The position numbers were made by a program, and so were the translations under genes. From Candidatus Omnitrophota bacterium (GTDB lineage: Bacteria > Omnitrophota > Gorgyraeia > Zapsychrales > Zapsychraceae), in assembly GCA_015233405.1 (NCBI GenBank), contig JADFXT010000004.1, positions 1-36,469 of the forward strand: a stretch of 36,469 nt of DNA, given 5' to 3'. The notes under the pieces are model-generated. The model ran no database searches. It was not told where the DNA came from and saw only the letters and a list, made by a program, of their open reading frames with translations. Positions within the stretch are counted from its first letter, which is position 1, and each line of letters starts with the position of its first letter. Positions 2,676-22,962 of this stretch are shown piece after piece.

Positions 2676-2696
2676 CCCTCAGAGCCGGACAGAGGC

Positions 2697-3302
2697 CTAC
2701 TTTTCTAAAACCAGAACTTTCCTGCCTTGAATCTTTAGCTTCCCTTTTACAAACAATTGAATGGCCCTTGGATACATCTTATGTTCAATGGCATGAATAC
2801 GCGCTTCTAAGGATTCTAGCGGTTCTCCTTCTTTCACATCAAGCGCTTCCTGCATGATAATGGGCCCGTGGTCCATCTTGTCGTCGACAAAATGGACTGT
2901 CACGCCCGTCACTTTGGCGCCATAGGTGAAAGCGTCTTTAATGCCTTCGATTCCTTTAAAAGAAGGCAACAGCGACGGATGAATATTAATAACCTTGTCC
3001 GGGAATTCTTTGACGAAAAACGGCGTCAACAGTTTCATATATCCAGCTAAAACCACAAAATCAATATCATGTTCTTTAAGATAGATCACGATATCGCGGT
3101 CATAACTTTGCGGCGTTAGATAATCTTTAGCTTCGAGGCACAGCGTCGGAATACCAGCCTCTTCCGCCCTTTTAAGCGCATGGGCCTTGCGGCTGTTGGA
3201 AAAGACCAATGCCAATTCTGCCGAAATCTCTCCGTTTTTAACAGCGTCGATAATCGCTTGAAGATTAGAACCAAATCCTGATGCGAAGACTGCGAATTTC
3301 AT
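2697..3302 (-). CDS. purN: Phosphoribosylglycinamide formyltransferase (GART)
   Basis: Transfers a formyl group from 10-formyl-tetrahydrofolate to GAR in step 3 of de novo purine synthesis, in the cytoplasm. The 201-residue length is normal. The N-terminal phosphate-binding loop GFGSNLQAI (9-17), the catalytic trio N106 and H108 in VINIHPSLLPSF, and D144 in HFVDDKMDHGP are all present, at the same numbers as in the E. coli enzyme. The ATG has AAGGAT upstream. It lies 15 bases after the MFS gene on the same strand and probably shares its transcript. It converges on the truncated YfhO-like gene with only about 20 bases between stops. Confidence 0.97.
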   Translation of the reverse strand: MKFAVFASGFGSNLQAIIDAVKNGEISAELALVFSNSRKAHALKRAEEAGIPTLCLEAKDYLTPQSYDRDIVIYLKEHDIDFVVLAGYMKLLTPFFVKEFPDKVINIHPSLLPSFKGIEGIKDAFTYGAKVTGVTVHFVDDKMDHGPIIMQEALDVKEGEPLESLEARIHAIEHKMYPRAIQLFVKGKLKIQGRKVLVLEK

Positions 3303-3317
3303 AAGGCGTATCCTTTT

Positions 3318-4625
3318 TTAATTTGACTTCAATATATTATCCACATTTTTAGTGGTAAAGGCAAGCTGCCCCTTACGATTTTTCACAAAGCCCACAACGC
3401 CGACGATAGCGATCAAAAATCCCGCACCCAGCAAAATCCATAACTGTCCGATAAATTGCGACAGCCACGAGCTTAAAAGCATCGAAACCAAAAATGCGAA
3501 ATGGATCACGATCTCGAGCGCGCTAAAAACCTTTCCCCGCATGGCTTCGTCGCTCACTAAATGCACGATGGTGTTCGAGGCGATGAAAACGGGCCCGATG
3601 ACAAGCCCTAACACCGTAGCTAAGACCATAGTCAAAAAAACATTATGGATATTATGGACAAACAACGCGAAGCACATGAGCATCATCCCGCCGACGATCA
3701 AACAAAAGAAAATCACTTTATGCCACGCGAACTTCTTTCCATAACGGCCATAAAGGACCGCGCCTAAAAATAACCCCACGCCGAGGCAGACCGCCATGAC
3801 CCCCAAATGTTTCGTGATGCTTTTAAACTCGTGCTGGATAAAAACGATCATCGTGACATACACCGCTCCCGCCGAGGCCAAAAGGATAAAAAGCATATTG
3901 ATCACGAACCGGATGTCCTTTTGCTGGCGCAGATAAACTAACCCTTCTTTGATTTCCACCCAGACCGATTTGCGTTTTTCTTTGACCTGCTGCCAGATCT
4001 TTTCTTCCTTGAATTCTTTGATCTGTAACTTTAGCTGGCTAGGGAGCGCAATAAAGAAAATGATCGCGCCCGATATAAAAAATGTCAGCGAGTCAATAAT
4101 AAAACCGTTTCGAGCGCCGAACCAGTCGATCAAAAATCCACCTAAGGCGCAACCCATGACAAAAGCGATCATTCCCGTCGTCGAGACAAGCGAGTTTGCG
4201 ATCAAGAGCTCATCTTCTTGGACGATGTCCGGGATAATCGACATCTTGGCCGGCAGATAAAAACGGCTAAAGCAAAACACAAAGAAAACAATTATGTAAA
4301 TGGGAATAAGCGACTTCCAGAAAAAAAAGATAAAGGGGATCAAAAGGACCAGAAGCCCGCGAAAAATATCACAAATAAAAAGGGTCAAACGCCGGTCCCA
4401 CCGGTCGACAAAAACACCGGCAAAGGGTTGAATAATAAAAACAGGAATGATAGTAAAGGTGAGCAATTTAGCCAAAATGACCGGCGAGCCGGAGGCTTTT
4501 TCGTAAACTAGGCCGACCAGCGCCAATTGATGAATGCGGTCACCGAATTGCGAAATAAGTTGGGCAAACCACAGACGCTGAAAATTACGATTACGGGAAT
4601 GGGTGAGAAACTCGAGAATTTTCAC
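3318..4625 (-). CDS. MFS transporter, MFS_3/EntS-like exporter
   Basis: A 435-residue inner-membrane protein with about 12 predicted membrane helices. The N-terminus (NRNFQRLWFAQLISQFGDRI) and the loop between helices 2 and 3 (FAGVFVDRWDRRLTLFICD, the MFS motif A position) are typical of the MFS_3 branch that includes the enterobactin exporter EntS and macrolide exporters. A charged cytoplasmic loop (about residues 200-225) splits the two six-helix halves. The substrate cannot be read from the sequence. The start is a GTG with AAGG seven bases upstream. It lies 46 bases downstream of tRNA-Thr on the same strand and may be co-transcribed with it, and is followed by purN. Confidence 0.88.
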   Translation of the reverse strand: MKILEFLTHSRNRNFQRLWFAQLISQFGDRIHQLALVGLVYEKASGSPVILAKLLTFTIIPVFIIQPFAGVFVDRWDRRLTLFICDIFRGLLVLLIPFIFFFWKSLIPIYIIVFFVFCFSRFYLPAKMSIIPDIVQEDELLIANSLVSTTGMIAFVMGCALGGFLIDWFGARNGFIIDSLTFFISGAIIFFIALPSQLKLQIKEFKEEKIWQQVKEKRKSVWVEIKEGLVYLRQQKDIRFVINMLFILLASAGAVYVTMIVFIQHEFKSITKHLGVMAVCLGVGLFLGAVLYGRYGKKFAWHKVIFFCLIVGGMMLMCFALFVHNIHNVFLTMVLATVLGLVIGPVFIASNTIVHLVSDEAMRGKVFSALEIVIHFAFLVSMLLSSWLSQFIGQLWILLGAGFLIAIVGVVGFVKNRKGQLAFTTKNVDNILKSN

Positions 4626-4671
4626 TAAACGGCCTTAAACTGGTGGAATTACAAACGCAACTGAAATAAAA

Positions 4672-4744
4672 AGCCGACGAGAGGAATCGAACCCCCGGCC
4701 CGCGCTTTACGAAAGCGCTGCTCTACCATCTGAGCTACGTCGGC
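4672..4744 (-). tRNA. tRNA-Thr (anticodon CGT)
   Basis: The complement folds as a full cloverleaf: acceptor GCCGACG/CGTCGGC, D arm GCTC-AGATGGTA-GAGC, anticodon stem GCGCT/AGCGC with loop TTCGTAA (anticodon CGT, reads ACG), a five-base variable loop, and a T arm with loop TTCGAAT. CCA is not encoded; a T run follows directly. It sits at the end of a long transcript leader made of hairpin repeats (4781-5208). Confidence 0.96.
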
Positions 4745-4780
4745 GTAATCTACCGCTAAATCTTTTCGAGAGAAGATTGC

Positions 4781-5208
4781 GCCGTACCCAGTTTTCCTTT
4801 TAAAACCTTTAGAGGAAACAGGGTCGGCAAATAACCATCTTCAAAGAACATGCCGTTACCCAGTTTTCCTTTTAAAACCTTCAGAGGAAACAGGGCCTGC
4901 CCTGCGAAGCTGAACATATGAAAAATTCAGCGAAGCATGGGTCGGCAAATAGCCATCTTCAAAGAACCTGCCGTTACCCAGTTTTCCTTTAAAAACCTTC
5001 AGAGGAAACAGGGCCTGCCCTGCGAAGCTGAACATATGAAAAATTCAGCGAAGCATGGGTCGGCAAACAACCATCTTCAAAGAACCTGCCGTTACCCAGT
5101 TTCTTCTAAGAATTTTAAAAGGAAGACTGGGTCGGCGAATAACCATCTTCAGAGAACCTGCCGTTACCCAGTTTCTTCTAAGAATTTTAAAAGGAAAACT
5201 GGACCAGC
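4781..5208 (-). repeat. Five tandem hairpin units in the leader of tRNA-Thr
   Basis: In transcript sense each unit begins GCCGACCC and ends ACTGGGTAACGGC, so its ends pair into a 4+7 bp stem. Units lie at 4781-4828, 4852-4946, 4970-5064, 5088-5136 and 5160-5208, separated by 23-base spacers that share TTCTTTGAAGATGG (one A-to-G variant reads TTCTCTGAAGATGG). Units 2 and 3 are about 47 bases longer, carrying an extra hairpin (CTGAA/TTCAG stem, CATATG in the loop) just after GCCGACCC. The first-transcribed unit (5160-5208) has degenerate ends. Position 4745-4780 is a 36-base tRNA-proximal spacer. A sixth copy stands before tRNA-Phe. Any reading frame across this block is repeat translation, not a gene. 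Confidence 0.9.
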
Positions 5209-5231
5209 AAAAACTCTTCTAATATGCAAAC

Positions 5232-5259
5232 ATCATAAACGAAAAATGCACAGATTCAA
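5232..5259 (-). promoter_or_regulatory. Putative sigma70-type promoter of the hairpin-repeat/tRNA-Thr transcript
   Basis: In the complement: TTGAAT (5259-5254), 16 bases, TATGAT (5237-5232). Transcription would begin near 5225, about 15 bases before the first hairpin unit, so the whole repeat array would be the 5' leader of tRNA-Thr. Confidence 0.5.
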
Positions 5260-5301
5260 ATATTTTTTTGCTTCAAATATTCCGGTAATTAAAAAATACT
5301 A

Positions 5302-6339
5302 TTACGGAGCCGCGACCGCCATCAACAAAAAAAAGTAACTCGCCATAATCACTAGCCCCACGGGCACACCAAATTTCGCCCACTCGGAACTTTTGATCTT
5401 AAGTTTTCCTGCCGCAATAATATTGGGAATATTACCCGGAATCAACATCCCGCCGGAAATTAAGAGCCCCAAAAGGGCAGCCTTTATCTGTAACAATCCT
5501 AAACTCGGTCCTATTTCAGCAGCGGCGAGCGTCGCATTATCAAGAATCGCAGAAATCATATTGATCCAATAAAGCCCCTGATACGGAATATGCGAAATAT
5601 ACGCGTCGACGATCGGCTTAAATCCTTTTCCTAAAAAAACAAGCGCCAACACGAACAAATAAACTTTGGCGGCTCTAACCAATATACCTTTAACATCTTC
5701 TTCTCTGTCTTCCTCAAGGCCGTGCTTCTTTTGCCGCTTATCCGGCATTAAAATCATGCTTAAAATCCCGACAGCCAAAACTCCCGGAATAATATATTTC
5801 CATAACTGCTTCCATAAGAAAAAGAAATCCGCGAAATAAGGACCTTCTTTAAGTTTCGAGATAACGATCGTGGAAAGCGGCTCACCGATCGGCGTTAAAG
5901 CGGCGCCCAAGCCAATCGCAAAACACGCCAGAACAACAAAGACAATCTCATGTTTCCTGTCGAGCGTCAGCGATGTGATGATCTCAACTAGAACAAGCGC
6001 AGCAATGATGGCGGTTATCACGCTCGATAAAAGCCCGAGAAGAATGATAATGAAGAAAGTAAATAATTTTAAGCCAATTGTATCCGCTATTTGATTGACG
6101 TGACGCGCAATAGGTTTTTGTAACGCTTTAAATAAAAATCCCGCGATCAACACCGCCAAGGTTATTTTAATCGGTTCAATCAACGCCTCTGTTATTAAAG
6201 ATTTCCCCCATTGAGATGTGATCGTAACCGCTACACAGCCCATCACAAAAAGAAAAATCTCGAGCTCCTCCTCAACCTTTTTGACGAAGAAAGGAACAAA
6301 TAAAACAACTGCTAATATGATAGCTAATCCTACAAACAC
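5302..6339 (-). CDS. DUF1646 family membrane protein, putative cation transporter
   Basis: A 345-residue polytopic inner-membrane protein with about 10 helices. The signature stretches GLGAALTPIGEPLSTIV, the NMISAILDNATLAAAEIGP region, and GGMLIPGNIPNIIAAGKLKI match DUF1646, which belongs with the ion-transporter (NhaD/ArsB-like) superfamily; the ion is not known. I chose the GTG at 6339 because AAGGAG (6355-6350) stands ten bases before it and a TATAAT promoter lies between it and the upstream in-frame TTG at 6393, which would then be outside the transcript. The gene lies alone between two tRNA genes. Confidence 0.82.
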   Translation of the reverse strand: MFVGLAIILAVVLFVPFFVKKVEEELEIFLFVMGCVAVTITSQWGKSLITEALIEPIKITLAVLIAGFLFKALQKPIARHVNQIADTIGLKLFTFFIIILLGLLSSVITAIIAALVLVEIITSLTLDRKHEIVFVVLACFAIGLGAALTPIGEPLSTIVISKLKEGPYFADFFFLWKQLWKYIIPGVLAVGILSMILMPDKRQKKHGLEEDREEDVKGILVRAAKVYLFVLALVFLGKGFKPIVDAYISHIPYQGLYWINMISAILDNATLAAAEIGPSLGLLQIKAALLGLLISGGMLIPGNIPNIIAAGKLKIKSSEWAKFGVPVGLVIMASYFFLLMAVAAP

Positions 6340-6373
6340 CGCGATCAATCTCCTTGGTAAAACTTCTGGACTT

Positions 6374-6403
6374 ATTATACGCAAATTCCGCAAAATGAAA
6401 CAA
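6374..6403 (-). promoter_or_regulatory. Putative promoter of the DUF1646 gene
   Basis: Complement: TTGTTT (6403-6398), 18 bases, TATAAT (6379-6374). The -35 half overlaps the stem of the tRNA-Phe terminator. The predicted start near 6367 leaves a leader of about 28 bases to the GTG at 6339. The perfect -10 is the stronger part; the -35 is weak. Confidence 0.5.
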
Positions 6404-6435
6404 AAAAGAGGGAGTTACGAGAACCCCCTCTTTTT
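6403..6435 (-). terminator. Rho-independent terminator after tRNA-Phe
   Basis: A 10-bp stem AAAAAGAGGG/CCCTCTTTTT with a 13-base loop, followed in the minus direction by a run of T. It starts four bases after the encoded CCA of tRNA-Phe. The symmetrical A/T tails would also let it work on plus-strand transcripts. Confidence 0.82.
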
Positions 6436-6438
6436 ATA

Positions 6439-6514
6439 TGGTGCCGAGACCCAGAATTGAACTGGGGACACAAGGCTTTTCAGGCCTCTGCTCTACCAAC
6501 TGAGCTATCTCGGC
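6439..6514 (-). tRNA. tRNA-Phe (anticodon GAA)
   Basis: The complement folds as acceptor GCCGAGA/TCTCGGC, D arm GCTC-AGTTGGTA-GAGC, anticodon stem GAGGC/GCCTT with loop CTGAAAA (anticodon GAA), T arm CCCAG-TTCAATT-CTGGG, discriminator A and an encoded CCA. It has its own promoter (6664-6692), a 143-base leader with one hairpin unit (6551-6598), and a terminator directly behind. Confidence 0.97.
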
Positions 6515-6550
6515 GTCATTTACTACTAAATCTTTTCTAGAAAAAACTAT

Positions 6551-6598
6551 GCCGTTACCCAGTTTTCCTTTAAAAAATTGAGCGAAGCATGGGTCGGC
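6551..6598 (-). repeat. Single hairpin unit in the leader of tRNA-Phe
   Basis: Same family as the array at 4781-5208: in transcript sense it starts GCCGACCCATGCTTCGCT and ends AAAACTGGGTAACGGC. It carries only the left half of the extra hairpin seen in the long units, and looks like a long unit that lost the middle between two T runs. The 36 bases between it and the tRNA (6515-6550) match the equivalent 36 bases before tRNA-Thr at 26 positions, including GAAAAGATTTAG. Confidence 0.85.
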
Positions 6599-6663
6599 GT
6601 ATCAAATATCTTTTAAAAAATTTTCCTCATTGAATTAACAAGATCTTCTGCAAAGGCGGATAA

Positions 6664-6692
6664 ATTGTAATGGAGAGCTTTTTGATTGTCAA
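6664..6692 (-). promoter_or_regulatory. Sigma70-type promoter of the tRNA-Phe transcript
   Basis: Complement: perfect TTGACA (6692-6687), 17 bases, TACAAT (6669-6664). Predicted start near 6657 puts the hairpin unit 6551-6598 inside the precursor of tRNA-Phe. Confidence 0.75.
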
Positions 6693-6723
6693 GAGAAGAA
6701 ACTTACCCTTGGGGACTCTCTAT

Positions 6724-7125
6724 CTACTTATTTAAATGATTGCTGATCTTCACATAAATATCTTGTGCCAAGGACACTTTAGGAAGCCCAAGCTTTCGCG
6801 CTTTGATGCTGAGCTTAACCGCATTCTTGCCAGACTGTGTCACCGTTGCCGTAATCTTTGCGCCGGAAACTGTAGCCTGAATGGTCCCTTGAGCATGGTC
6901 CTCTTCCTGAATGACCCCCATAATAGAGATAACCTCGACAGAAGCATCCCAAACCGCGCTTTGTTCATTCTCGAGAATGCCTTCAAAAGTATCGGGGCTC
7001 GCGGCATATCCTCCGACGGCACCAACGGCGCCAACGGCTAGCCACACACAGCCGCTCAAGAGAAATATCAAGGGAACACATAAAACTTTTGCCCAAAGGC
7101 TCCGAGAAACCGATATTGCTTTCAA
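6724..7125 (-). CDS. DUF3568 family lipoprotein
   Basis: A 133-residue predicted lipoprotein of unknown function. The signal peptide ends in the lipobox LLSGC (C26), so the mature protein should be lipid-anchored; Lnt in this window would finish its acylation. After a Gly/Ala-rich stretch (AVGAVGGYAASPDTFEG) follows a small alpha/beta domain, with the pattern of DUF3568 (conserved in bacteria with complex envelopes). The start is a TTG with a very strong AAGGAGG six to seven bases upstream, which decides the call. A 26-codon ORF lies just upstream on the same strand and probably shares the transcript. Confidence 0.78.
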   Translation of the reverse strand: MKAISVSRSLWAKVLCVPLIFLLSGCVWLAVGAVGAVGGYAASPDTFEGILENEQSAVWDASVEVISIMGVIQEEDHAQGTIQATVSGAKITATVTQSGKNAVKLSIKARKLGLPKVSLAQDIYVKISNHLNK

Positions 7126-7152
7126 GGAACTCCTCCTTATTTAAGGCCCTGT

Positions 7153-7233
7153 TTATCCTAAGCAGGGTTTCGTGCCATGATTGGCTTTTTTAGACCGCCA
7201 GCTCAATTTTCCACGTCGTTTTCTTTTACTCAT
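7153..7233 (-). CDS. Tiny strongly basic protein, 26 residues
   Basis: Unrecognised. The frame reads MSKRKRRGKLSWRSKK then ANHGTKPCLG, with 9 Lys/Arg in the first 16 residues. Support: AAGGAAGG eight bases before the ATG, and a good sigma70-type promoter upstream at 7286-7314. The composition, and the ending with one Cys, suggest an RNA- or ribosome-binding peptide; small proteins with a KKANHG segment occur to my memory in other bacterial phyla, but I cannot name a family. It lies 27 bases before the DUF3568 gene. A CCCTG/CAGGG hairpin overlaps its stop codon and could reduce read-through. Confidence 0.55.
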   Translation of the reverse strand: MSKRKRRGKLSWRSKKANHGTKPCLG

Positions 7234-7285
7234 AATAACATCCTTCCTTTATTTGGAATATAATATTTTAAATTTTTTAGAGATT

Positions 7286-7314
7286 GTTATATACAATATC
7301 AGGAGAAAATGCAA
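7286..7314 (-). promoter_or_regulatory. Promoter of the tiny basic ORF and DUF3568 gene
   Basis: Complement: TTGCAT (7314-7309), 17 bases, TATAAC (7291-7286). The start would be near 7279, about 46 bases before the ATG at 7233. Confidence 0.6.
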
Positions 7315-7342
7315 CAAAAAAGTCTCTCCCGCCATTTTAAAA

Positions 7343-8017
7343 CTAACAGCCGACCGCTGAAACATTCAACTCATCAACGATTTTGGCAACGTCTAAAACA
7401 TAAGAAACGATTTTAAACGGTTTAGATAAAATAAGTTCGTCTTGGGTACTCGATCCCGTAGCGACGGCAACGGTCTTGACCAAGGCATTATGGCCGGTCT
7501 CGACATCCACCGTCATGTCCCCGACAAAAACAGCTTCGTCGGGCTTGAGGGAAAATTTTTGAAGGATCTGTGCCAGGATCTCGCCGTCAGGCTTTTGGCG
7601 TTTGACCATATCGCCAGAAACAACATACTGAAAATAATCCTGAATTTTAAGATGATGTAAAATCACCTGCGTCGACCACTGCGGCCGGTTGGTCGCCACC
7701 GCCAATAAAAGCCCGCGCTCTTTTAATATCTTAAGAAGGTCTTTGGCTCCAGGCATAAATTTCGTCCCGGATTTCAAAGACCGTTTATGATGCTGTCGGT
7801 AAATCGCGATGATCTTATCAACGTCCTCAGGCTTCACGAAACGGCTCATCAAATTCCGCTCACCCCAACCCACGCTTCGCTGAATCGTTTCATCATCCGC
7901 CGGAGGATATCCTAAAGTTTTAAGCGCATAATTGAGGCTCTCACAAACAGCCTTATAGGCATTCACGATGGTTCCGTCGAGGTCGAAGATGACAAGCTTG
8001 ATTGTGGACATATTCAT
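7343..8017 (-). CDS. HAD-superfamily hydrolase, phosphoglycolate-phosphatase-like
   Basis: A 224-residue cytosolic phosphatase. HAD motif I is DLDGT (D12, D14), a helical cap follows (about residues 20-85), motif II is VATNRPQW (about 106), motif III the Lys of KRQKPDGEI, and motif IV VFVGDMTVDVETG. This is the Gph/PGMB subclass, which removes phosphate from 2-phosphoglycolate or similar small phosphate esters; the real substrate cannot be told. It is the last gene of the long run that begins at prfB. A second possible start is the ATG two codons in; neither has a strong ribosome site. Confidence 0.85.
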   Translation of the reverse strand: MNMSTIKLVIFDLDGTIVNAYKAVCESLNYALKTLGYPPADDETIQRSVGWGERNLMSRFVKPEDVDKIIAIYRQHHKRSLKSGTKFMPGAKDLLKILKERGLLLAVATNRPQWSTQVILHHLKIQDYFQYVVSGDMVKRQKPDGEILAQILQKFSLKPDEAVFVGDMTVDVETGHNALVKTVAVATGSSTQDELILSKPFKIVSYVLDVAKIVDELNVSAVGC

Positions 8018-8062
8018 TTTATTGACCGGGTGTTCGCTCTTCTAAACCCTGCCCCTTGATGA

Positions 8063-8248
8063 TTATTTCTGCTGGCTAACGATAAAAAGCATCAGCATGC
8101 CGCCTAAGGCAAAGATCATGCCTATCGCGCCTCTAAACAAGATGACCACATCTTGCCACCACAAGAGGACGAGCATAATGCCAAAAATCAGGATGAGATT
8201 CCCGGCGAGAAATAATAAAAATTTTTTGTAATTGTTTTGGTCTGACAT
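8063..8248 (-). CDS. Small two-helix membrane protein, 61 residues
   Basis: Unrecognised. From MSDQNNYKKFLLFLAG it has two hydrophobic helices (about residues 9-31 and 36-57) separated by a short loop QDVVILFR, and ends VSQQK. I start it at the ATG at 8248 because AAAGG stands about seven bases before it; the frame stays open upstream into the AT-rich palindrome 8291-8357 but that part is repeat sequence. Located between lpxL and the HAD gene on the same strand. It could be a small envelope subunit. Confidence 0.6.
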   Translation of the reverse strand: MSDQNNYKKFLLFLAGNLILIFGIMLVLLWWQDVVILFRGAIGMIFALGGMLMLFIVSQQK

Positions 8249-8290
8249 AAAATTACCTTTTTGAAAAATTCGAATACCGAAATACGAAAT

Positions 8291-8357
8291 AAATTCCAAA
8301 CCCGAAATCCCAAATGGTGTCTTTTATTTTTGGGGATTTCAGATTTGTTTCGAATTT
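8291..8357. repeat. Imperfect palindrome of the GAAATCC/GGATTTC type
   Basis: Left arm 8291-8311 and right arm about 8333-8357 are imperfect inverted repeats built from AAATTC and GAAATCCC blocks; related GAAAT blocks continue on both sides (8270-8290, 8358-8374). The right arm supplies the last codons (KSEM) and the stop of lpxL. Translations of such repeats (EIRN/KSEI runs) appear in many uncultured-bacterium genomes. Confidence 0.6.
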
Positions 8358-9298
8358 CACATTTCGGATTTCGTGCTTGAAGATCCCTCCGGCTTTGTCT
8401 TCCAGCGCTTATGCATCCAGCCCCATTCATGAGGGTATTTACGAATATAACGCTCAATAATTTGTGTGATCTTTGCCGTATTGACCAAAAGCGTTTCGTC
8501 CTCGGTCTTTCCGGATATTAATTCCAATGGCGGCTCAATAATGACCCGGTGGAAATCTCCCTTTTCCCGAATAATGAACATCGGCAAAATGACGGCTTGG
8601 GTCCTTAAAGAAAAAACAACCGGGCCCGTGCCGGTGGCCGCTTTCTCGCCGAAGAAATCCACAAAAACCCCGCTGCCGTTGCCAAAATTCTGGTCGAGAA
8701 GAATAAACAATAGTTCATTATTGCGCAAGGCTTTCAGACAACTGGTCACGCACTCTCTGCGGGGAACCGCATAAATCGTTTTCAATCCTTCTTCAGTCCG
8801 GCGCCTCAACAGATCTGCCTCCAATTTCTCGTCGCGCGCCGGGCGGATAATCGCGTTAACCGCATATCCTTTTTTGGCCAGAGAAAACATCAACAAAGGA
8901 AAATTTCCAAAATGCGCCGTGACAATTATAACCCCACGGCCTTTGGCCACGGCTTGGTCCAAATACTCTAAGCCTTCATACTGGACCTTTTTTCCCAACA
9001 TCTTGGGATGAGCCATAAAAAATAACATCTCGACCATGCCCAGCCCAAAATGATCGAAACAGCGACGGATAATCTGCTTGATTTCTTTCTCGGACTTTTC
9101 TTTACCGAAAGCGATATGCAGGCTTTCTTCGGCAATACGCCTTTGACGGATCATAAAAACAAAACCGATCTTAAGGAACACAAACGTGATCCCCCGCATG
9201 ATAGAATAGGGCACCCAACGGAAGAACCATCCGAAAAAATATAGAGCATTGCGGGCCAAAGCCCTCTGAAAACTTCTGACTATTTTCTTTGAATCCAT
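8357..9298 (-). CDS. lpxL: Lipid A acyltransferase, LpxL/HtrB family
   Basis: A 313-residue inner-membrane enzyme of the LPS acyltransferase family, which adds a secondary acyl chain to Kdo-lipid A. An N-terminal membrane anchor (about residues 17-50) is followed by the catalytic region IIVTAHFGNFPLL with His129, then the conserved blocks AIIRPARDEKLEADLLRRR, FILLDQNFGNGSGVFVDFFG, GTGPVVFSLRT and HEWGWMHKRWKT near the C-terminus. In the usual H-x4-[D/E] motif the acid should be at residue 134, which is Pro here. The gene stops inside the palindrome 8291-8357. It follows the TPR/GT-C gene in the same direction, with AGGA about ten bases before the ATG. Confidence 0.88.
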   Translation of the reverse strand: MDSKKIVRSFQRALARNALYFFGWFFRWVPYSIMRGITFVFLKIGFVFMIRQRRIAEESLHIAFGKEKSEKEIKQIIRRCFDHFGLGMVEMLFFMAHPKMLGKKVQYEGLEYLDQAVAKGRGVIIVTAHFGNFPLLMFSLAKKGYAVNAIIRPARDEKLEADLLRRRTEEGLKTIYAVPRRECVTSCLKALRNNELLFILLDQNFGNGSGVFVDFFGEKAATGTGPVVFSLRTQAVILPMFIIREKGDFHRVIIEPPLELISGKTEDETLLVNTAKITQIIERYIRKYPHEWGWMHKRWKTKPEGSSSTKSEM

Positions 9299-9401
9299 AA
9301 AAGTTTTTTCCTATTGGCAGAACGACGATGACTTCCCTCTAAAAACGGTAATATGTTAACATAAACCTGAATTTCTCCATAGAAATTTTCTTTTAAAAGA
9401 A

Positions 9402-11450
9402 TTACGGTCGCCCGTTTTTTAAAACATTGGCCTGGTCGATAAGCATTGGGAAACGTTTATCTTTTGGGTACAACTTCGCTGCGTCCTGCCAAAGGCTAAT
9501 AGCCTTATCATATTCTTTGAGATTGGCTAAAAATTTTCCAAGACTAATCAAGGCTTCTTTATTTTTGGGATCAAGTTTTAAGGCCTTGGAAAAAAACTCA
9601 AAAGACATCTTCAGATAATTTCTCAGCGCAAACATATTGCCAATATCCACAAGAAGCGGGACATCGTCGCTGTGCGCCAACAATTCTTGGGCCGATTGCA
9701 CCACCAAATCCGGTTCTTTTCTTAGAAATTGGGTCTCCATCAGAAAAACCCACGTCAAACGATCTTTAGGCGCGATATTCAAATTTTCCCTGCATAATCT
9801 TTCCGCGTCGAGATATTTTTCTTGCCGATGATATATTTGAATCAAACCATAACGACCTTCTAACCCTAGAGGATCAAAATGAATTGACTGATAAAACGCC
9901 TTTTGCGCATCATTTTGTCGCCCTTGTTTCATATAGGCAGCGCCCAAATTATTACACACAACCGCTGAAGAAGGATAAAACTCCAAGGCCTTTTTAAAAT
10001 ATTTTATCGCCTTGTCCGGATCATTCTCGCCGAGCTCGATTAATCCCAGATTAGAAAGCGCCTGCCAATCGGTCGGACGGTTTTCTAAGGATCTCGAGAA
10101 ATATTCTTTAGCGAGTTCAAGATTTTTCTCTTCAAGATAGGCGCCGGCAAGCCAAAAATTAATACTTTTATAATTAGGAACCTGTTTTAACCAATATAAC
10201 GAATAACTCTTAGGGGTTTTCCAAACCTCATTCATGGCGCGTGAAATAAACAAAAAAGATAAAGCAAGGAAAATTATAACAGTCAGTCCTAGAATTTTTG
10301 ACCGTTTTTGATAAAGCCACAAACAGGACATCGCTAAAAGAGCAAAAAATCCTATCGACGGAAAAAATAACCAGTGCGGCTCAATGGTCAGTCCGGATTG
10401 AGACCGGATAAAACAACCTATCGTCACCGGCACTATCCCGATCATAAGCATCGCCCAACTCCAACCGGCGAACATAGACCGTTGGCGAAGATAAAAAAAC
10501 AAATAGACGGCTGCTATCGCTAAAGCTACAAATCCCAAATTCCATAATAATAGATGGTCTCGCACCGGCCAAGTCAGCCAAAAAAGGACAATATTATGAG
10601 GGAAAACCAGATTGGAGAAATACCAAAAAATCAACTTTAAGAAAGTGGCGATATACTCAAACAAATTAATATGTAAGACGGGGATCTTATCAATTAAAGA
10701 GCCCTGCACACTGGAAAACTTAAAACGAAAAAGGAGCTGCAACACAAATAAAAGAAAATAATACCGGCAGGCTTTTAAACTTTCTAGAAACGATTTCTTC
10801 TTTAAGATCCAGAAAGTCGCCAACAAATACAACGGCAAGATCATTGCGGATTCATGACACAGGCAGGCGCTACAGTAAGCTAATAGAGCCAACACATCAT
10901 AACGGAAAGACCTTGTGGGAGTTTTTCTTGCCTTTAGAAAGAACGCTAGCGCTATAATTTGAAATAAAAACTGAACGGCAAAAACATTGGTCGTAATATA
11001 ATTGACGACAAAACCATTCATGGGATGGACCAGAAAAAAAAGGCTGCCTAAGAAAGCCAAAATCCTTTTGCCCGTCACATCAAGCCAAAAGAAAAAGAGT
11101 GCCAACCCGCAAAGATAAAATAAAAATAAATTAAATGTATGATACCCAAATGGATTCTCTCGAAAGAGCGGATAACAAAGACTGGGCAAGATATCAACAA
11201 CCGGACGATAGAATTCCTTAGACCAGTTCTGCGTTTCGTCGGAGAAACTCCTCTCCGGAAGAAAACTTTGAGAAAGATATTTCAGATTTTGGGCCTTAGG
11301 ATTCTTTAAAAGAAGCGAAATATCGTCCATCATAAAGGCGTTATGAAGGCTGTTAGAATAGCATAGGATGGCCGCCAACAAAAGCACGGCCGCGATGATG
11401 GCATTTTGAACGGGTCCCCGACGGGTCATTGAACTGAAAGGAATTTTCAT
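9402..11450 (-). CDS. GT-C-like membrane protein with C-terminal TPR repeats
   Basis: A 682-residue protein of TMTC-like architecture: about 11 membrane helices (residues 17-410) followed by a TPR domain (about 430-670). The first large loop has the paired acids MMDD (42-43) and a downstream YRPVVDILPS segment, as in GT-C glycosyltransferases that use polyprenyl-phosphate sugars. TPR units are readable at NFWLAGAYLEEKNLELAKEY, ALSNLGLIELGENDPDKAI and AVVCNNLGAAYMKQGRQNDA. In GT-C fold enzymes of the TMTC kind the TPRs bind the acceptor protein. Its ATG follows the lnt stop with no gap, so translation is likely coupled. Substrate unknown; protein O-glycosylation in the periplasm is a guess. 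Confidence 0.8.
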   Translation of the reverse strand: MKIPFSSMTRRGPVQNAIIAAVLLLAAILCYSNSLHNAFMMDDISLLLKNPKAQNLKYLSQSFLPERSFSDETQNWSKEFYRPVVDILPSLCYPLFRENPFGYHTFNLFLFYLCGLALFFFWLDVTGKRILAFLGSLFFLVHPMNGFVVNYITTNVFAVQFLFQIIALAFFLKARKTPTRSFRYDVLALLAYCSACLCHESAMILPLYLLATFWILKKKSFLESLKACRYYFLLFVLQLLFRFKFSSVQGSLIDKIPVLHINLFEYIATFLKLIFWYFSNLVFPHNIVLFWLTWPVRDHLLLWNLGFVALAIAAVYLFFYLRQRSMFAGWSWAMLMIGIVPVTIGCFIRSQSGLTIEPHWLFFPSIGFFALLAMSCLWLYQKRSKILGLTVIIFLALSFLFISRAMNEVWKTPKSYSLYWLKQVPNYKSINFWLAGAYLEEKNLELAKEYFSRSLENRPTDWQALSNLGLIELGENDPDKAIKYFKKALEFYPSSAVVCNNLGAAYMKQGRQNDAQKAFYQSIHFDPLGLEGRYGLIQIYHRQEKYLDAERLCRENLNIAPKDRLTWVFLMETQFLRKEPDLVVQSAQELLAHSDDVPLLVDIGNMFALRNYLKMSFEFFSKALKLDPKNKEALISLGKFLANLKEYDKAISLWQDAAKLYPKDKRFPMLIDQANVLKNGRP

Positions 11451-12956
11451 TTAATTCGGACGTTTCCTTGTACTTATCATCCCTAGAATAACATAGCCCA
11501 CGCACAACCAGGCAAAAAGGTCTCCGAATTTTGTATAAAAAGTCTTTAAAGAATTTAAACTGACACTCTGGGCCGCAAAGCCTTGAACATAGGTCATTTT
11601 GCCATTTTTATCCGTAACCGCTTTGACCACTTTTCCCAAGGGATTGATAAAACAGCTCACGCCTGTATTAGCTGCGCGGACAACCATCTTTCGATTCTCG
11701 ACGGCACGAAAGACGCTTTCCTCAAGATGCAAAAACGGCGCTTGCGTGTCTTTAAACCAGTCGTCATTCGTGATATTAATCAAAACTTGTGCGCCGTTGT
11801 TGACAAACGCGCGAGATAAACCCGGCGAGCTGTCTTCAAAACAAATCAAGACGGAAAATCGACGGGCTCCCTTAAGATCAAAAACAGTAAATTCTTTTCC
11901 TGGAGTAAAATCGTCAATCGGGACGACATATTTTAAGAAAGGGAATATCCGTCGATACGGAATATATTCGCCGTACGGGACGAGTTTAAGCTTATCATAT
12001 CTTTTAACGGTCTGTCCTTCCTGGGACAGTAAAAGCGCGGAATTATAATAAATTCTTTCATCTTCACTAACAACCGCTCCCAACAAAAGAGGGATTTTCT
12101 CCTCGGATGCGAATCCTTTGACCTGCGTAAAAAGTTCCTCTTCTTCCGGAAGAACGCCAGGAACAGCCGATTCCGGCCAGATAATTAGCTCAGGATGAGA
12201 CGTTAAAGACTGTCGGCTTAATGAAATCTGGTTTTGAATAATATGGTCCCATGCGGCAACGCGCCATCGCTCCGTTAATCCAACCGAAGGCTGGATAATA
12301 GCAATTTTTATATTTCCCGTCGGAGTGATCCGGCATTTAAGCCGATATTGACCATAGCCTAACGCGAGGCCCAGGCAGACAACGACCGTCACGATGGCTG
12401 TCCATCTTTGAGAAATCTTTTCGCGCGAAAATAAAGATTCTTTAATGCCGATATTGATGAGCACGATCAAAAAAGACACGCCATACATGCCAGTGATATC
12501 GGAGATCTGAATGGCTGGCAAATTTTTATACTGGGACAATCCCAAAGACGCCCAACTCATCCCGGAGATCAAATGTGCCCGGGCGAATTCCAAAACCACC
12601 CAAGCAGCAGGAATAAGAAAAAGTTTCCAAAAAGATTTTTGTTTCTGAAAAAAACTCGTCGCCAGGCCAAAGAGGCCAAAAAAGATGGCAAAATAACAGG
12701 AAAGAATGACAGCGCCTAAAAACGTCACATAACATAACCAATAAAACGTAAACCCAAAAAAGATAAACCCGCAAAAATAGCCGATACGAAATGAATCTTT
12801 AAGAGATTTCCCGTCGATAGAAAATAAAAACGGGATGAGCCCGACCCATGCCAAAGCCCAAAAATCCGTTTTGGGAAAAGCCAGGATCAACAGGATGGAA
12901 GAAATGCCCGCAAGCAATCCGCTTCGGGATTTAAAGAATTTTAGGAAAGAGATCAT
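11451..12956 (-). CDS. lnt: Apolipoprotein N-acyltransferase
   Basis: Adds the third acyl chain to the N-terminal Cys of lipoproteins in the inner membrane, a step needed for Lol-type sorting to the outer membrane. The 501 residues hold an N-terminal set of membrane helices (about 1-200) and a nitrilase-fold periplasmic domain. The catalytic triad is visible: E262 in WPESAVPG, K322 in RYDKLKLVPYGEYIP, and C372 in LICFEDSSPG. A last membrane helix follows (about 478-495). The gene lies 36 bases after cbiM and abuts the TPR/GT-C gene. Clients in this window include the DUF3568 protein and LptE. Confidence 0.96.
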   Translation of the reverse strand: MISFLKFFKSRSGLLAGISSILLILAFPKTDFWALAWVGLIPFLFSIDGKSLKDSFRIGYFCGFIFFGFTFYWLCYVTFLGAVILSCYFAIFFGLFGLATSFFQKQKSFWKLFLIPAAWVVLEFARAHLISGMSWASLGLSQYKNLPAIQISDITGMYGVSFLIVLINIGIKESLFSREKISQRWTAIVTVVVCLGLALGYGQYRLKCRITPTGNIKIAIIQPSVGLTERWRVAAWDHIIQNQISLSRQSLTSHPELIIWPESAVPGVLPEEEELFTQVKGFASEEKIPLLLGAVVSEDERIYYNSALLLSQEGQTVKRYDKLKLVPYGEYIPYRRIFPFLKYVVPIDDFTPGKEFTVFDLKGARRFSVLICFEDSSPGLSRAFVNNGAQVLINITNDDWFKDTQAPFLHLEESVFRAVENRKMVVRAANTGVSCFINPLGKVVKAVTDKNGKMTYVQGFAAQSVSLNSLKTFYTKFGDLFAWLCVGYVILGMISTRKRPN

Positions 12957-18189: not shown

Positions 18190-18222
18190 AAAAAATGCCT
18201 CTTTAAACTTTAAGAACTAGGC
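18190..18222 (-). terminator. Possible terminator of the giant-protein gene
   Basis: Around the stop codon the mRNA can fold GCC...TCTT/AAGA...GGC with a bulge, followed directly by A and a run of seven T. The stem is short and imperfect; the T run is the main support. Confidence 0.35.
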
Positions 18223-21200
18223 TTTTCGTCTTGGGATGGGTCAGCCAGTCCTAAAAGCTGAAAAACATTAGCTATAGGCGCCACATTAATAATGACCGGG
18301 GTGAAACCAGAGACGTTCTTTAAGCTTTCCAAGCTCATTTTAGGATTAAATTTAATCGGCGAACCCTTTTTTTCAATGGTCAAATTCTTCGAGTTTAAGT
18401 CGATACCACCATTGGTCCGCTCATCGCTTGTTGACATTGCCCGGTCTTTTTTATTCCAAGTAAGATTATATTTTGACTTATCAACATCATTCAAACGAAT
18501 CCCACCAGTCCCATCGTTAAACTCTTCATCAAGAGCCCTCATCATAGTGGCGAATTCCCCTTCTTGAATATTATGGCCTTTCCATCCCACCCAGTTGCTG
18601 ACTTCTTCCCAAGTTAAACCATTTGCCCCAGGAATAACATCAAATTGTGCTTTTAAGGCTCGCCGGATAAGAACATATTTGGCCATATAGCTTTCGTCAA
18701 TACCCTTGCTGTTTGCATAGGCCTGTAACTGAGCAATGGTTATTTTACCGGCCATAAGTTCGTTCTCCATAAAGTTTACTATCTTCTCAAAATAGCCGCT
18801 CGCGTCGTGTGGCAAATATTTCGGACCAGCAGGGGCTTGTTCAAAAGCAACATCCTCGCCTGCATATCCTCTCAAATCTGGGGCAGCAGCGACTTGTTCG
18901 CCTAAATGGAATATTGCATTAATGATATTTATAAGCCGTCCCTGCCTTTTCTCATAACCAGCCTTTATTTCTGGCGAGGCTTTTGTCTCTTTATCTAAAA
19001 TATCAAAAGAGCTTTGAACAGCTTCATTTAACGCCCCAAGTTTTTTTAGAAGAAGATTTCTCTGGTTAACCAAATCTTCCATTTTCTTTTGTTCTTCTGA
19101 AAGTAATTCTATATTTTTAGCTTTCTTTTTACCTCCCAACTCAATCATCTGCTCATATGCCCATATGCTTGTTTGAACATTAGCTGCTTTTCGCACAAGA
19201 GTATCAAATTGATCCTGGTAATTTTTAAGATTTCGCTCATAGGTCATGAGCACGACCGTATCCCCTCCCGTGCTCACAATCATACCGGTTTGAGCATTAA
19301 TCCGTTCAATGGCAGCGGACATATCGTCTTCTGCGGTCTTAATAACATCCAATACCTTTTGAATCTGGGCTAACTCTTCTAAAACTCTTTCTTCTGCTGC
19401 TACCAAGTCTAAATTATTTATAATAACGTATTGGGATTTTTTCGTTTGTCTCGCTAAAGCAATGTCTTTTAATTTCTTTTGTATCGGCCCAATTTCTGCT
19501 TTTATCTGCGCAACATTTGTTTTGATGATCGCCAAAGAGTCTCTGACGATTTCTTTATCTTTCTCGGATCCGTCGCCCTCAAGAAACTTGCTGGAGTCAA
19601 TAAACTTATATCCATCTTCAACCCGCAAGATTCCAGCATGCAACAGACCTAATGTACTATTAAAAATATTTTCGTCATCAAACGTAAACATGACGAGCGC
19701 GTTTCCATTTTCTGCAATAGTAGGCTGAATAACAAAACCATTATTAGCTGAATCTTGCGAAGCGCCATATAAAGATGCCATGAGGGCTCCCAATGCCACC
19801 ATACTAGACAGTTTGATAATGACCGTTGTCATAGCGGCATCAGCAAGATTCAATTCCATTGTGCGGCCTGTATACCGCGGAATAAAACTCATCTGATAAT
19901 TTCTTTGAAGGCCTTTCTGAGGAGCCGTTAATTTCACGACTTGAGGAGGCGCCAGAGGAGCTTTACCCGCCGTCAATTCTTCAGTGCGGGTTTGTGTAAA
20001 TGGATTCAGAGTCACAAAAGCATCACTATTCACCCCGGTTAGAGGAACATTCAGCTCCTCATGATCCGCTATCATGGCCTTGTCCATCTCAAAAGTTGCC
20101 TTCTCTAATTGTTGTTGGTATTTTGCATTGATTTGAATAATATTATCAGTTTTTACATTAAAATTCCTCAAGGTGTTCAACCATTCGTTCAAAATTTTCA
20201 GAATATTCCCGTTTCTTTTTAAGATAAATTGAGCATGGGCAATGGCCTCTAAATTCTGAGGTTTCTTCTTAAGCGCGTCCTGTAAATCTGTTTGTGCATA
20301 CTGCGTAAGCAATTGATAGATTGGAAGTGTTTTATTAATTGAAAGTACGACTTGCTTAACAGCTTCAAGTGTCTGGGCTGCAGAAGGATCAAGACTTTTA
20401 GACAACTTCTCAATGATCTTAACAATCTCTGTTTGTTCATCATTGACAATTTTTAATCCATCTTTAATCATGGCCAAATGTTGCGTAATAGAATCCCGTG
20501 CTTGTTGAAGTGCATCTGCTGTCATCGCCGTCCCGTTGAGATTGATAGCATTCAACTGGTTTTGAATAACCAAAACATTATTTGTTATATCATTAATGGC
20601 ATTGTTAATAATCACTAAAGAATCCCGAAGCTTTTGTTTATCCCCGTCGGACCCTCCATCAATAATCTTCCACTTGATAAGATCATCCGCATCCCAAATA
20701 AGCTTAACGGCGGTGCCCAGCAACTCTCCTGTCCGGTTAAAAAGACTGTCTGCGGTAGAATTATTGGGGTTCAAAATATATGGCTCTACCTGTGATTGTA
20801 AGGGCGGCAACGGATTAGAAGAAAAGCTTCCCGACGTACTTGTAGTTAATAGACTAACAACTACTCCTGTAATAAGGAAAGCAATTTGTGGCGCTGTCAA
20901 CATGGCTGCGTCGTATTGAGTCCATCCAAAACCAGCAATATAAATAAACTGATTAGGGACAAGTGAAGCATATTGAACAGAATTTCCCTTGGACAATCTC
21001 GGCAAATTAAAAGACTGTTGACCGCCATGAGTTCTAGTCCACTTTTCATGCTCTTTTAACTTTGGCAAATATTCCGTAAGGTCTGCGATTCTTCCTTCAA
21101 CGTCGGATCTCAACTGATTAGCCGCCTCTTGCACATTAGAATTTTTCAGTACAGGATCATTTAATCTTTTTAGAATATCTCGCAGCTTCTGAAGTTCAGT

Positions 21201-22769
21201 GGCAAGATGTTCAGATGACAAAGTGCCAGGGGCATCACTTTCAGTATTAATGACAGTAAAAATCGGTGCGACCTCTAAGCTAATTTCGTTAAAAACAATT
21301 CGCGGGGCCTGATTTTCAAGAAAATCCGCTGGACCACGCAATTGGGATGCATAGGACTCAGGAACCTCTCTTCCGGATCTTTCAATGGAATCAAGAATGG
21401 CTTTTATTTTATTATAAATTTCTCTAACCTGCTCGATAGTGCTCCTATCAAATGCCCCACTAGAAATAATATTCCTATACTCATTCGAAAGTTGAGTGAG
21501 CGGACCAGTATAAGGGTCGCTTGATTGCAGCATTATTTCATTCCCTCCAGGATTTTCACTTTGCTGGCCAAAAACCGTCGATACTCCGCCGGAAGCACCC
21601 AAGATTACGCCAACTAATGAAAAAAAGTAGGCTTTTGCAAGAAATGTTCTCCTAGCCATGGTTTTGTCGCGAGTCACAGACAGAGATTTTTCTGTAAATT
21701 TAAACTTTGCCCCACCAGAGAAATACTTTCTGGGAATCAAAGATTGCGTGACGGGGTCATACTCTTCCTTTATATAGTTATATGCGCCTTTCTTGAACGC
21801 TTCCAAATATCGGTTATAAATCTTCAGTTTCTCCTGCTTGTCCTTAATCTCAACACCGTTGGTTTTGTTCTGGTCCACATAAACCTTACCTAAAATACTT
21901 TCCTTTAAACTCTGCTTAAACCATGTGGCCAATATCATCGAATAATAAATTTGACGTAGCGGAGCAAAAGTCTTTCCGAAGTTCACTTCTTTCTCAAGTT
22001 CCGGAATGATGACTTCCTTAATAATAGCCGTGGCCATGGTTTGAGTGTTGGTCTTTGGCTTTGGAGCAATAGCTGACGGCTTTTGGCTAAGGGCAAAATA
22101 GTCTTCTTCCAACATGACTTTTAATTTTGCCTCGACCACAAATGCCGATGCCTGGCTTGCATCTTTTGTCGGGTTTTCATAAACAACCGCCTTATCCGGA
22201 ATGATCCACACTTTATTCAGTGTATCGACCGGCACATCCGTCGAACCATACATTTGATAAGCCTTCTTGTAAATCTTATCCCAGAACTGTTTGCCGGTTT
22301 CTTTTTCCGGATTCATCAAGGAGCTCGTGATCTGCTTAAGCAAATAATCCTGCGCCAATAAATCCCGGCCCATTTCTGTCTCGCCAAATTTCAAAGGAAC
22401 GATTCTATCGGGCTCTTTGGGATTTAAGTTCACCCACATATCGTCTTCCGGCGTGGTCAAGGATGCCAAAAAATATTTGATCAACCGGCTTGATTCATCC
22501 TTAAAAGCGTCTCCTTTTAAGCCAGACTGGGCGACATCCACAATAAAATCAAATTTAAGCGGATTATCCGGATAAATTTTGATGCCCTTAATAACTGCCG
22601 GATTAAAAGCTGGCGTCAATCCAATGGGCTGAATCACCGCTGTAGGAATAGCCTGCGCGTAAGATAACTGCGGAAGAATACTAAAATTGAGAGCAAAACT
22701 TATGATCAAGACCACATGGATGGCCTTGCCTACTCTATTATATCTACTGTTCTTTTTCTGGAAAGTCAT
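18210..22769 (-). CDS. Giant secreted multi-module protein, putative polyprotein (Omnitrophota-type)
   Basis: 1519 residues, function unknown. A Sec signal peptide ends near residue 40 (LPQLSYAQA). Residues 44-355 form a module I recognise from Omnitrophota giant proteins (LTPAFNPAVIKGIKIYPD, GETEMGRDLLAQDYLLKQ, TLNKVWIIPDKAVVYE, EYDPVTQSLIPRKYFSGG). D-x-[AT]-M occurs at M371 (DKTM), M623 (DAAM), M899 (DKAM), M980 (DAAM) and M1445 (DRAM). After M371 comes ARRTFLAKAYFFSLVGVIL, like a Tat signal; after M623 and M980 come signal-peptide-like helices then Ser/Asn-rich stretches. Coiled helical modules follow each and residues 675-733 resemble 1034-1092, so modules 623-870 and 980-1290 look duplicated. 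The tail (1445-1519, TNGGIDLNSKNL, FTPVIINVAPIANVFQLLG) is another recurring Omnitrophota domain. AAGGGGGG precedes the ATG. No enzyme motif was seen. Confidence 0.85.
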   Translation of the reverse strand: MTFQKKNSRYNRVGKAIHVVLIISFALNFSILPQLSYAQAIPTAVIQPIGLTPAFNPAVIKGIKIYPDNPLKFDFIVDVAQSGLKGDAFKDESSRLIKYFLASLTTPEDDMWVNLNPKEPDRIVPLKFGETEMGRDLLAQDYLLKQITSSLMNPEKETGKQFWDKIYKKAYQMYGSTDVPVDTLNKVWIIPDKAVVYENPTKDASQASAFVVEAKLKVMLEEDYFALSQKPSAIAPKPKTNTQTMATAIIKEVIIPELEKEVNFGKTFAPLRQIYYSMILATWFKQSLKESILGKVYVDQNKTNGVEIKDKQEKLKIYNRYLEAFKKGAYNYIKEEYDPVTQSLIPRKYFSGGAKFKFTEKSLSVTRDKTMARRTFLAKAYFFSLVGVILGASGGVSTVFGQQSENPGGNEIMLQSSDPYTGPLTQLSNEYRNIISSGAFDRSTIEQVREIYNKIKAILDSIERSGREVPESYASQLRGPADFLENQAPRIVFNEISLEVAPIFTVINTESDAPGTLSSEHLATELQKLRDILKRLNDPVLKNSNVQEAANQLRSDVEGRIADLTEYLPKLKEHEKWTRTHGGQQSFNLPRLSKGNSVQYASLVPNQFIYIAGFGWTQYDAAMLTAPQIAFLITGVVVSLLTTSTSGSFSSNPLPPLQSQVEPYILNPNNSTADSLFNRTGELLGTAVKLIWDADDLIKWKIIDGGSDGDKQKLRDSLVIINNAINDITNNVLVIQNQLNAINLNGTAMTADALQQARDSITQHLAMIKDGLKIVNDEQTEIVKIIEKLSKSLDPSAAQTLEAVKQVVLSINKTLPIYQLLTQYAQTDLQDALKKKPQNLEAIAHAQFILKRNGNILKILNEWLNTLRNFNVKTDNIIQINAKYQQQLEKATFEMDKAMIADHEELNVPLTGVNSDAFVTLNPFTQTRTEELTAGKAPLAPPQVVKLTAPQKGLQRNYQMSFIPRYTGRTMELNLADAAMTTVIIKLSSMVALGALMASLYGASQDSANNGFVIQPTIAENGNALVMFTFDDENIFNSTLGLLHAGILRVEDGYKFIDSSKFLEGDGSEKDKEIVRDSLAIIKTNVAQIKAEIGPIQKKLKDIALARQTKKSQYVIINNLDLVAAEERVLEELAQIQKVLDVIKTAEDDMSAAIERINAQTGMIVSTGGDTVVLMTYERNLKNYQDQFDTLVRKAANVQTSIWAYEQMIELGGKKKAKNIELLSEEQKKMEDLVNQRNLLLKKLGALNEAVQSSFDILDKETKASPEIKAGYEKRQGRLINIINAIFHLGEQVAAAPDLRGYAGEDVAFEQAPAGPKYLPHDASGYFEKIVNFMENELMAGKITIAQLQAYANSKGIDESYMAKYVLIRRALKAQFDVIPGANGLTWEEVSNWVGWKGHNIQEGEFATMMRALDEEFNDGTGGIRLNDVDKSKYNLTWNKKDRAMSTSDERTNGGIDLNSKNLTIEKKGSPIKFNPKMSLESLKNVSGFTPVIINVAPIANVFQLLGLADPSQDEKPSS

Positions 22770-22962
22770 GCTTCCCCCCTTTTGTTGGTCTTCAAATATG
22801 CCTAATACAAGTATACCCTATTTATTGGGAAAAACACCCTCCGAAGGAAGAAAAAAGGAAGCGTTTTCCGGAAAGTCAGCGACGAGGAAATAATTTCATT
22901 AAAAAAGAACCACAAAAGAAAATCGCGTAAAGACATTTTAAAACTGTTCTTTTCCTTCTTTT

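Follow-up and report, generated by a model that had tools for sequence, protein, structure and literature searches.

Putative exported polyproteins marked by D-x-A-M junctions in a protein family of Omnitrophota

Viral polyproteins are cut at a short fixed code that differs between lineages, and MARTX and other multi-effector toxins are exported as one chain from which several effectors are cut apart. Plastid polyproteins of Euglena, among them RBCS, light-harvesting proteins and chloroplast PGK, enter the organelle as chains and are cleaved there at decapeptide linkers; the linker of E. longa is NMAAMTGEKD, and cutting is attributed to a thiol protease (PMC4938576, PMC7729029). The polyvalent proteins of phages and conjugative elements carry up to 15 catalytic domains per chain and are in some cases self-processed; they are delivered with mobile DNA, often with a metallopeptidase of their own (Iyer et al. 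2017, PMC5512222). Within Omnitrophota, Seymour et al. (2023, PMC10066038) described giant ORFs of >20 kb with few annotated domains, presumed to act in adhesion or predation, and did not mention polyproteins.

We analysed a window of 36,469 nucleotides from a Candidatus Omnitrophota bacterium, in which an ORF for a 1519-aa protein lies among neighbours that, read from translation, resemble the housekeeping genes prfB, secA and leuS. A strong SD-like AGGGGGG is found upstream of its ATG, at 22774-22780, and the protein contains no cysteine. It is a member of a large, undescribed Omnitrophota family, whose recurring ends we call the N-module and the C-module (Table 1). Searches of Pfam, NCBIfam and PHROGs gave no family above cut-off for the whole protein, and units 1-4 matched no known family. 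AlphaFold2 models of the N-module (pLDDT 68; best E 0.15) and the C-module (pLDDT 75, pTM 0.25, no regular fold) had no PDB match.

Table 1. Parts of the window protein and their positions in the window.
Feature	Residues	Position	Strand	Remarks
Polyprotein ORF	1519 aa	18210..22769	minus	start 22769, end 18210
Sec-type signal peptide	1-38	22656..22769	minus	cleavage region SYA↓Q
N-module	1-367	21669..22769	minus	end = RKYFSGG + spacer; alignment A1, 33 paralogs
Junction DKTM		21657..21668	minus	D-x-T-M form; N-module border, before RRxFL signal
Unit 1	371-622	20904..21659	minus	Tat-like signal ARRTFLAKAYFFSLVGVIL; no known domain
Junction DAAM	620-623	20901..20912	minus	
Unit 2	623-898	20076..20903	minus	hydrophobic start; homologue of unit 4
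Junction DKAM	896-899	20073..20084	minus	
Unit 3	899-979	19833..20075	minus	short, without signal
Junction DAAM	977-980	19830..19841	minus	
Unit 4	980-1444	18438..19832	minus	signal-like start; paralog of unit 2
Junction DRAM	1442-1445	18435..18446	minus	
C-module	1445-1519	18213..18437	minus	GGIDLN...GFTPVIIN...LLGL; alignments A2/A3

The window's genome (2.38 Mb) encodes about 39 family proteins, most of which combine a GGIDLN C-module with an N-module of ~365 aa that includes a Sec signal. Some 35 other long ORFs share the N-terminal ~365 residues, and the GGIDLN tail is found in more than 30. The tail, which in the window protein does begin after M1445, stands at the end of most paralogs. 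Together the 39 ORFs amount to 74,664 aa, the longest having 4007 aa. Of 55 genomes around that of the window, which itself was among them, 52 have the N-module. It also occurs in at least 500 stretches of a species-level collection (those named among the matches listed are Omnitrophota), and a sample of 193 genomes from the phylum gave 56 positives, those listed all belonging to the same class. Two long paralogs, L041 (3,535 aa) and L042 (4,007 aa), contain repeated ~290-aa units matching PRTase-CE (PF24390), with six such stretches in L041; most of these units are preceded by D-x-A-M. The same genome also holds an open frame of 30,644 aa that runs to a contig end (G000:C46:22825-114756, minus; L251-L255), with no N-module match, no excess of D-x-A-M (2 vs 2.7) and 0.28% Cys.

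All five D-x-[AT]-M tetrapeptides that an initial annotation had picked out in the window protein are present at the residues given, against a mean of 0.26 in shuffled sequences, none of 20,000 of which reached five. Across the 39 own-genome family ORFs, D-x-A-M occurs 200 times vs 9.1 expected (22x), while D-x-T-M stays at chance (7 vs 6.0), so that the proposed mark holds in its alanine form only and DKTM at M371 counts by position alone. The mark is D-x-A-M-[TVLMI]-[TSAG]: M+1 is preferentially T/M/A/V/S in the own genome (L/V in relatives) and M+2 is T/A/S/V/G. Single-residue variants are found at about the chance rate (D-x-A-L 0.9x, D-x-T-M 1.2x), with D-x-S-M mildly enriched in relatives (2.3x); DxAL[VIL]T does precede some C-modules, though D-x-A-L overall is not enriched. 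In an unbiased scan of gapped tripeptides D-x-A-M ranked first in both sets. Enrichment in homologues, which the annotation had proposed as a check, was found as well: family ORFs of relatives contain 163 copies vs 16.8 expected and their other ORFs 6 vs 13.5, and the mark is conserved in homologues of other genera, 10-30x enriched in many.

The marks avoid domains. None fell inside the 5,698 aa covered by Pfam domains, where 14.7 were expected, and embedded domains sit between successive copies: a GHMP kinase begins 20 aa after one D-x-A-M and ends 44 before the next, and the corresponding distances are 10 and 45 aa for adenylate kinase and 7 and 54 aa for HPr. L093, from Ca. Zapsychrus exili, runs N-module, D-x-A-M, two GAPDH, D-x-A-M, PGK, D-x-A-M, enolase, D-x-A-M, D-x-A-M, aldolase, D-x-A-M, C-module. 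Its PGK (residues 1201-1625) covers the full model, with homology that begins 4 residues after the Met of one mark and runs to 2 residues before the Asp of the next; its enolase (1657-2059) ends ~35 residues before the following mark. In L090, PGK homology ends directly before D-x-A-M. Units 2 and 4 of the window protein are homologous (E 1e-8), and their local alignment starts exactly at DAAM/DAAM despite ~60 and 76 extra residues upstream. In clear cases a unit retains its own start Met after the mark, as in DRAM-TS-MERREFLSALGG of L052_8975, so that the mark is an added tag and more than a retained start codon. Unmarked borders exist too, as in the single unit of L050:1597-7392 that joins five enzyme domains (NAD synthase, nucleotidyltransferase, nitrilase-type hydrolase, HAD hydrolase and methyltransferase) with no D-x-A-M between them. 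The family, the junction code and its location at unit borders are well supported by the sequences, and the evidence supports units that were formerly free-standing proteins fused into a chain. Fusion of separate proteins had been proposed from the window alone, with all of them secreted; the chain with border marks bears this out, but many units are related to cytosolic enzymes and were not secreted by origin.

Sister genomes carry chains of GAPDH-PGK-enolase-aldolase, and units of the own-genome paralogs include CoaD-like/CoaE, NAD synthase, adenylate and nucleoside diphosphate kinases, and HPr; the CoaE and HPr of the chains are divergent second copies of free-standing genes. A further family chain (L131) combines malate synthase and isocitrate lyase domains, the glyoxylate-shunt pair. 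The GAPDH (844-1175) and enolase (1656-2057) units of L093 gave strong matches to PHROG families 21942 and 35063.

Family N-termini have a hydrophobic signal-type core in 135 of 138 cases and an x-x-A↓Q site in 118 of 138, and a Sec export signal in the N-module is well supported by sequence. Hydrophobic segments also lie within 30 aa of a mark more often than expected (21 vs 5.0), and the starts that follow include Tat signals (SRRNFLK, GRRDFLK) and lipoboxes (LAGAC, VPGC, CPGC, LSNC), with such signals found in relatives too. For the window protein, the RRxFL Tat-like signal claimed after M371 (ARRTFLAKAYFF...) was recovered, and the start at M980 (TTVIIKLSSMVALGALMASLYGAS) likewise resembles a signal peptide; that at M623, also described as signal-like, is hydrophobic but has no basic residues. 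M899 has no signal peptide.

Cysteine is depleted throughout the family, to 0.12% in the own genome vs 1.35% in its other ORFs (those within the fetched stretches of the genome) and to 0.14% vs 1.11% in relatives. Embedded PGK units contain 1 Cys in ~3,600 aa, whereas standalone PGK averages 2.3 Cys per protein and none of 30 is Cys-free. The high-scoring genomes listed have one standalone PGK of ~400 aa each, and more than 12 of the listed genomes carry a divergent second PGK, mostly within a long ORF. All six embedded GAPDH copies whose sequence spans the active site keep the catalytic Cys, with no other in four and one more in two, compared with a mean of 4.6 Cys in 30 standalone copies. 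In the own genome, 84% complete, the only NDK match is embedded, and its HGSDS motif is intact. On these comparisons, a cysteine purge combined with catalytic-residue retention in GAPDH and NDK is well supported, and the Cys-poor environment together with the retained residues argues for enzymes active outside the cytoplasm. In an otherwise Cys-poor chain (L048), a deaminase domain at about residue 2646 of frame 2258-11470 keeps its paired zinc cysteines (SCENC). A search of 55 genomes for the ATP/ADP translocase (PF03219), a candidate companion of metabolism outside the cytoplasm, gave 0 matches; the control set was likewise without a match, so that this result does not establish absence.

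Some genomes without D-x-A-M in their family proteins have SS[PAS][IVL] after the N-module and before GGIDLN. Eight family sets, which represent about seven genomes, show this pattern enriched 7-23x, and most D-x-A-M genomes show it at ~1-3x (control ORFs, 22 vs 23.8). Because the pattern was picked after viewing the same sequences, its enrichment stands on less firm ground than that of D-x-A-M. The two are almost mutually exclusive among genomes, and some genomes carry neither. Loci with SS[PAS][IVL] as the alternative mark include L066, L241, L243 and L249; in one genome (L092, L109), TTDSDTG[LI] before the GGID modules perhaps hints at a third code.

We consider it fairly likely that these proteins are polyproteins which bring sets of working enzymes out of the cytoplasm and are cut at D-x-A↓M by a putative protease. 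Translation would start once, at the first ATG of the chain, and the signal peptide of the N-module would take the whole chain through Sec, so that all units leave the cytoplasm. Outside, a putative endopeptidase would recognise D-x-A-M-[TVLMI]-[TSAG] and cut, most simply between A and M, releasing the N-module, the units and the C-module. The units would be former free-standing proteins, in part exported ones with their old signals and in part relatives of cytosolic enzymes, and lineages lacking D-x-A-M would often use SS[PAS][IVL], as though cutting had passed to a different protease. Inference here covers the cutting itself, its exact bond and compartment, the protease, whether export or cutting comes first, and how the enzymes are used. 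The earlier suggestion that the tetrapeptide is a junction mark or a cleavage site stands for the junction mark, and D-x-A-M is probably a cutting site. Pfam scans of most family proteins (several, e.g. L042, left out) showed no protease domain, and no recurrent neighbour gene was found as a protease candidate; the commonest neighbour cluster was rejected, as it resembles ORFs antisense to the N-module.

Other explanations account for some of these features. An ATG lies within the motif and natural-looking N-termini follow it, as expected of internal translation starts, but an SD-like sequence precedes only 20 of 200 family D-x-A-M ATGs, the rate of other internal ATGs (9.7%), and such starts give no reason for conservation of D and A upstream. 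Internal ribosome starts were rejected on this background rate, in line with the annotation, which had seen no ribosome site before these ATGs and thought independent starts unlikely. Chance as the origin of D-x-A-M is refuted by the 22x enrichment, and we give chance and internal starts together a nearly negligible probability. A DNA-level process, with D-x-A-M as the scar of a recombination site that shuffles units and has no role in the protein, would be in keeping with the own-genome codon bias at the mark (GAC 128 vs 72 expected; GCC/GCG 169 vs 110; NNG after ATG), and on account of this bias a nucleotide-level component may exist. However, third codon positions at D and A vary, the bias is much weaker in relatives, the flanks lack DNA conservation, and the residue preferences at x and at M+1/M+2 indicate selection on protein. 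Conservation of the mark is mostly at the protein level, with an extra own-genome bias, and a scar without a protein role is highly improbable.

A mark that stays uncut and serves as a linker or docking peptide, connecting the domains of a single long exported protein, would agree with the unmarked multi-enzyme stretches and with the lack of a protease in the scanned members. Yet few linkers hold exactly three residues constant while their single-residue variants stay near chance, D-x-A-M is replaced by another code in other genomes, and lipoprotein signals right after the mark make little sense in an uncut chain; we regard this reading as quite unlikely. The complete signals that begin a few residues after D-x-A-M, lipoboxes and twin-arginine motifs included, would be functional only if their N-terminus were freed on the cytoplasmic side, and prior passage of the entire chain through Sec is hard to reconcile with them. 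A better fit for these signals is a polyprotein for export that is cut while still in the cytoplasm, either as it is translated or afterwards, and whose products leave by their own Sec, Tat or lipoprotein signals while signal-less enzymes stay behind. Cytoplasmic cutting fits less well with the Cys purge of signal-less PGK and GAPDH units, which life in the cytoplasm does not explain, and a hydrophobic segment follows only about one in ten sites; we find it unlikely. On the reading we prefer, with cutting outside the cytoplasm, the Tat and lipoprotein signals within the chain could be vestigial, or part of the cutting may be cytoplasmic.

In the literature searched, no genome-scale cell-encoded polyprotein system (~39 chains; N-module in 52/55 genomes) has been described for bacteria, and our search, with a preprint on the giant genes of predatory bacteria outside its scope, found no comparable bacterial system. 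Enzymes that keep catalytic residues and lose other cysteines would imply a working metabolism in the periplasm, the extracellular space or a partner cell, and metabolism outside the cytoplasm bears on the lifestyle of the tiny, possibly predatory or parasitic Omnitrophota. More tentatively, and with rather less than even confidence, we suggest that these bacteria maintain a second metabolism outside the cytoplasm. It would comprise glycolysis from aldolase to enolase together with enzymes for NAD, CoA and nucleotide phosphates, each polyprotein leaving through a single Sec signal and its units being freed by a dedicated protease, whose recognition code would have changed from lineage to lineage. 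Such a system would be the bacterial counterpart of the import of polyproteins into plastids. The junction code offers a handle for finding a new protease, divides Omnitrophota ORFs that otherwise lack annotation into units that can be annotated, and predicts the exact positions of neo-N-termini, which can be checked in existing metaproteomes.

The window protein shares phylum, long ORFs and few annotated domains with the giant ORFs of Seymour et al., but its ORF measures 4.56 kb and not >20 kb. Unlike polyvalent proteins, the Omnitrophota chains have Sec signals and metabolic enzymes, with no peptidase domain in scanned members; unlike MARTX, the Pfam-scanned members have no RTX repeat or cysteine-protease domain (CPD); and unlike viral polyproteins, the chains are cell-encoded, many per genome, and exported. 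The nearest analogue is found in Euglena, where one N-terminal targeting signal also precedes several whole proteins, PGK among them. This likeness is one of mechanism, and we do not claim homology to the Omnitrophota modules: the Euglena chains are eukaryotic repeats of one protein, and their conserved decapeptide linker is absent here, its place taken by D-x-A-M plus two residues or by SS[PAS][IVL]. We regard this as a system new to bacteria, whose cleavage step is a prediction; elsewhere, the design is known from viruses and the plastids of algae and not from bacterial chromosomes.
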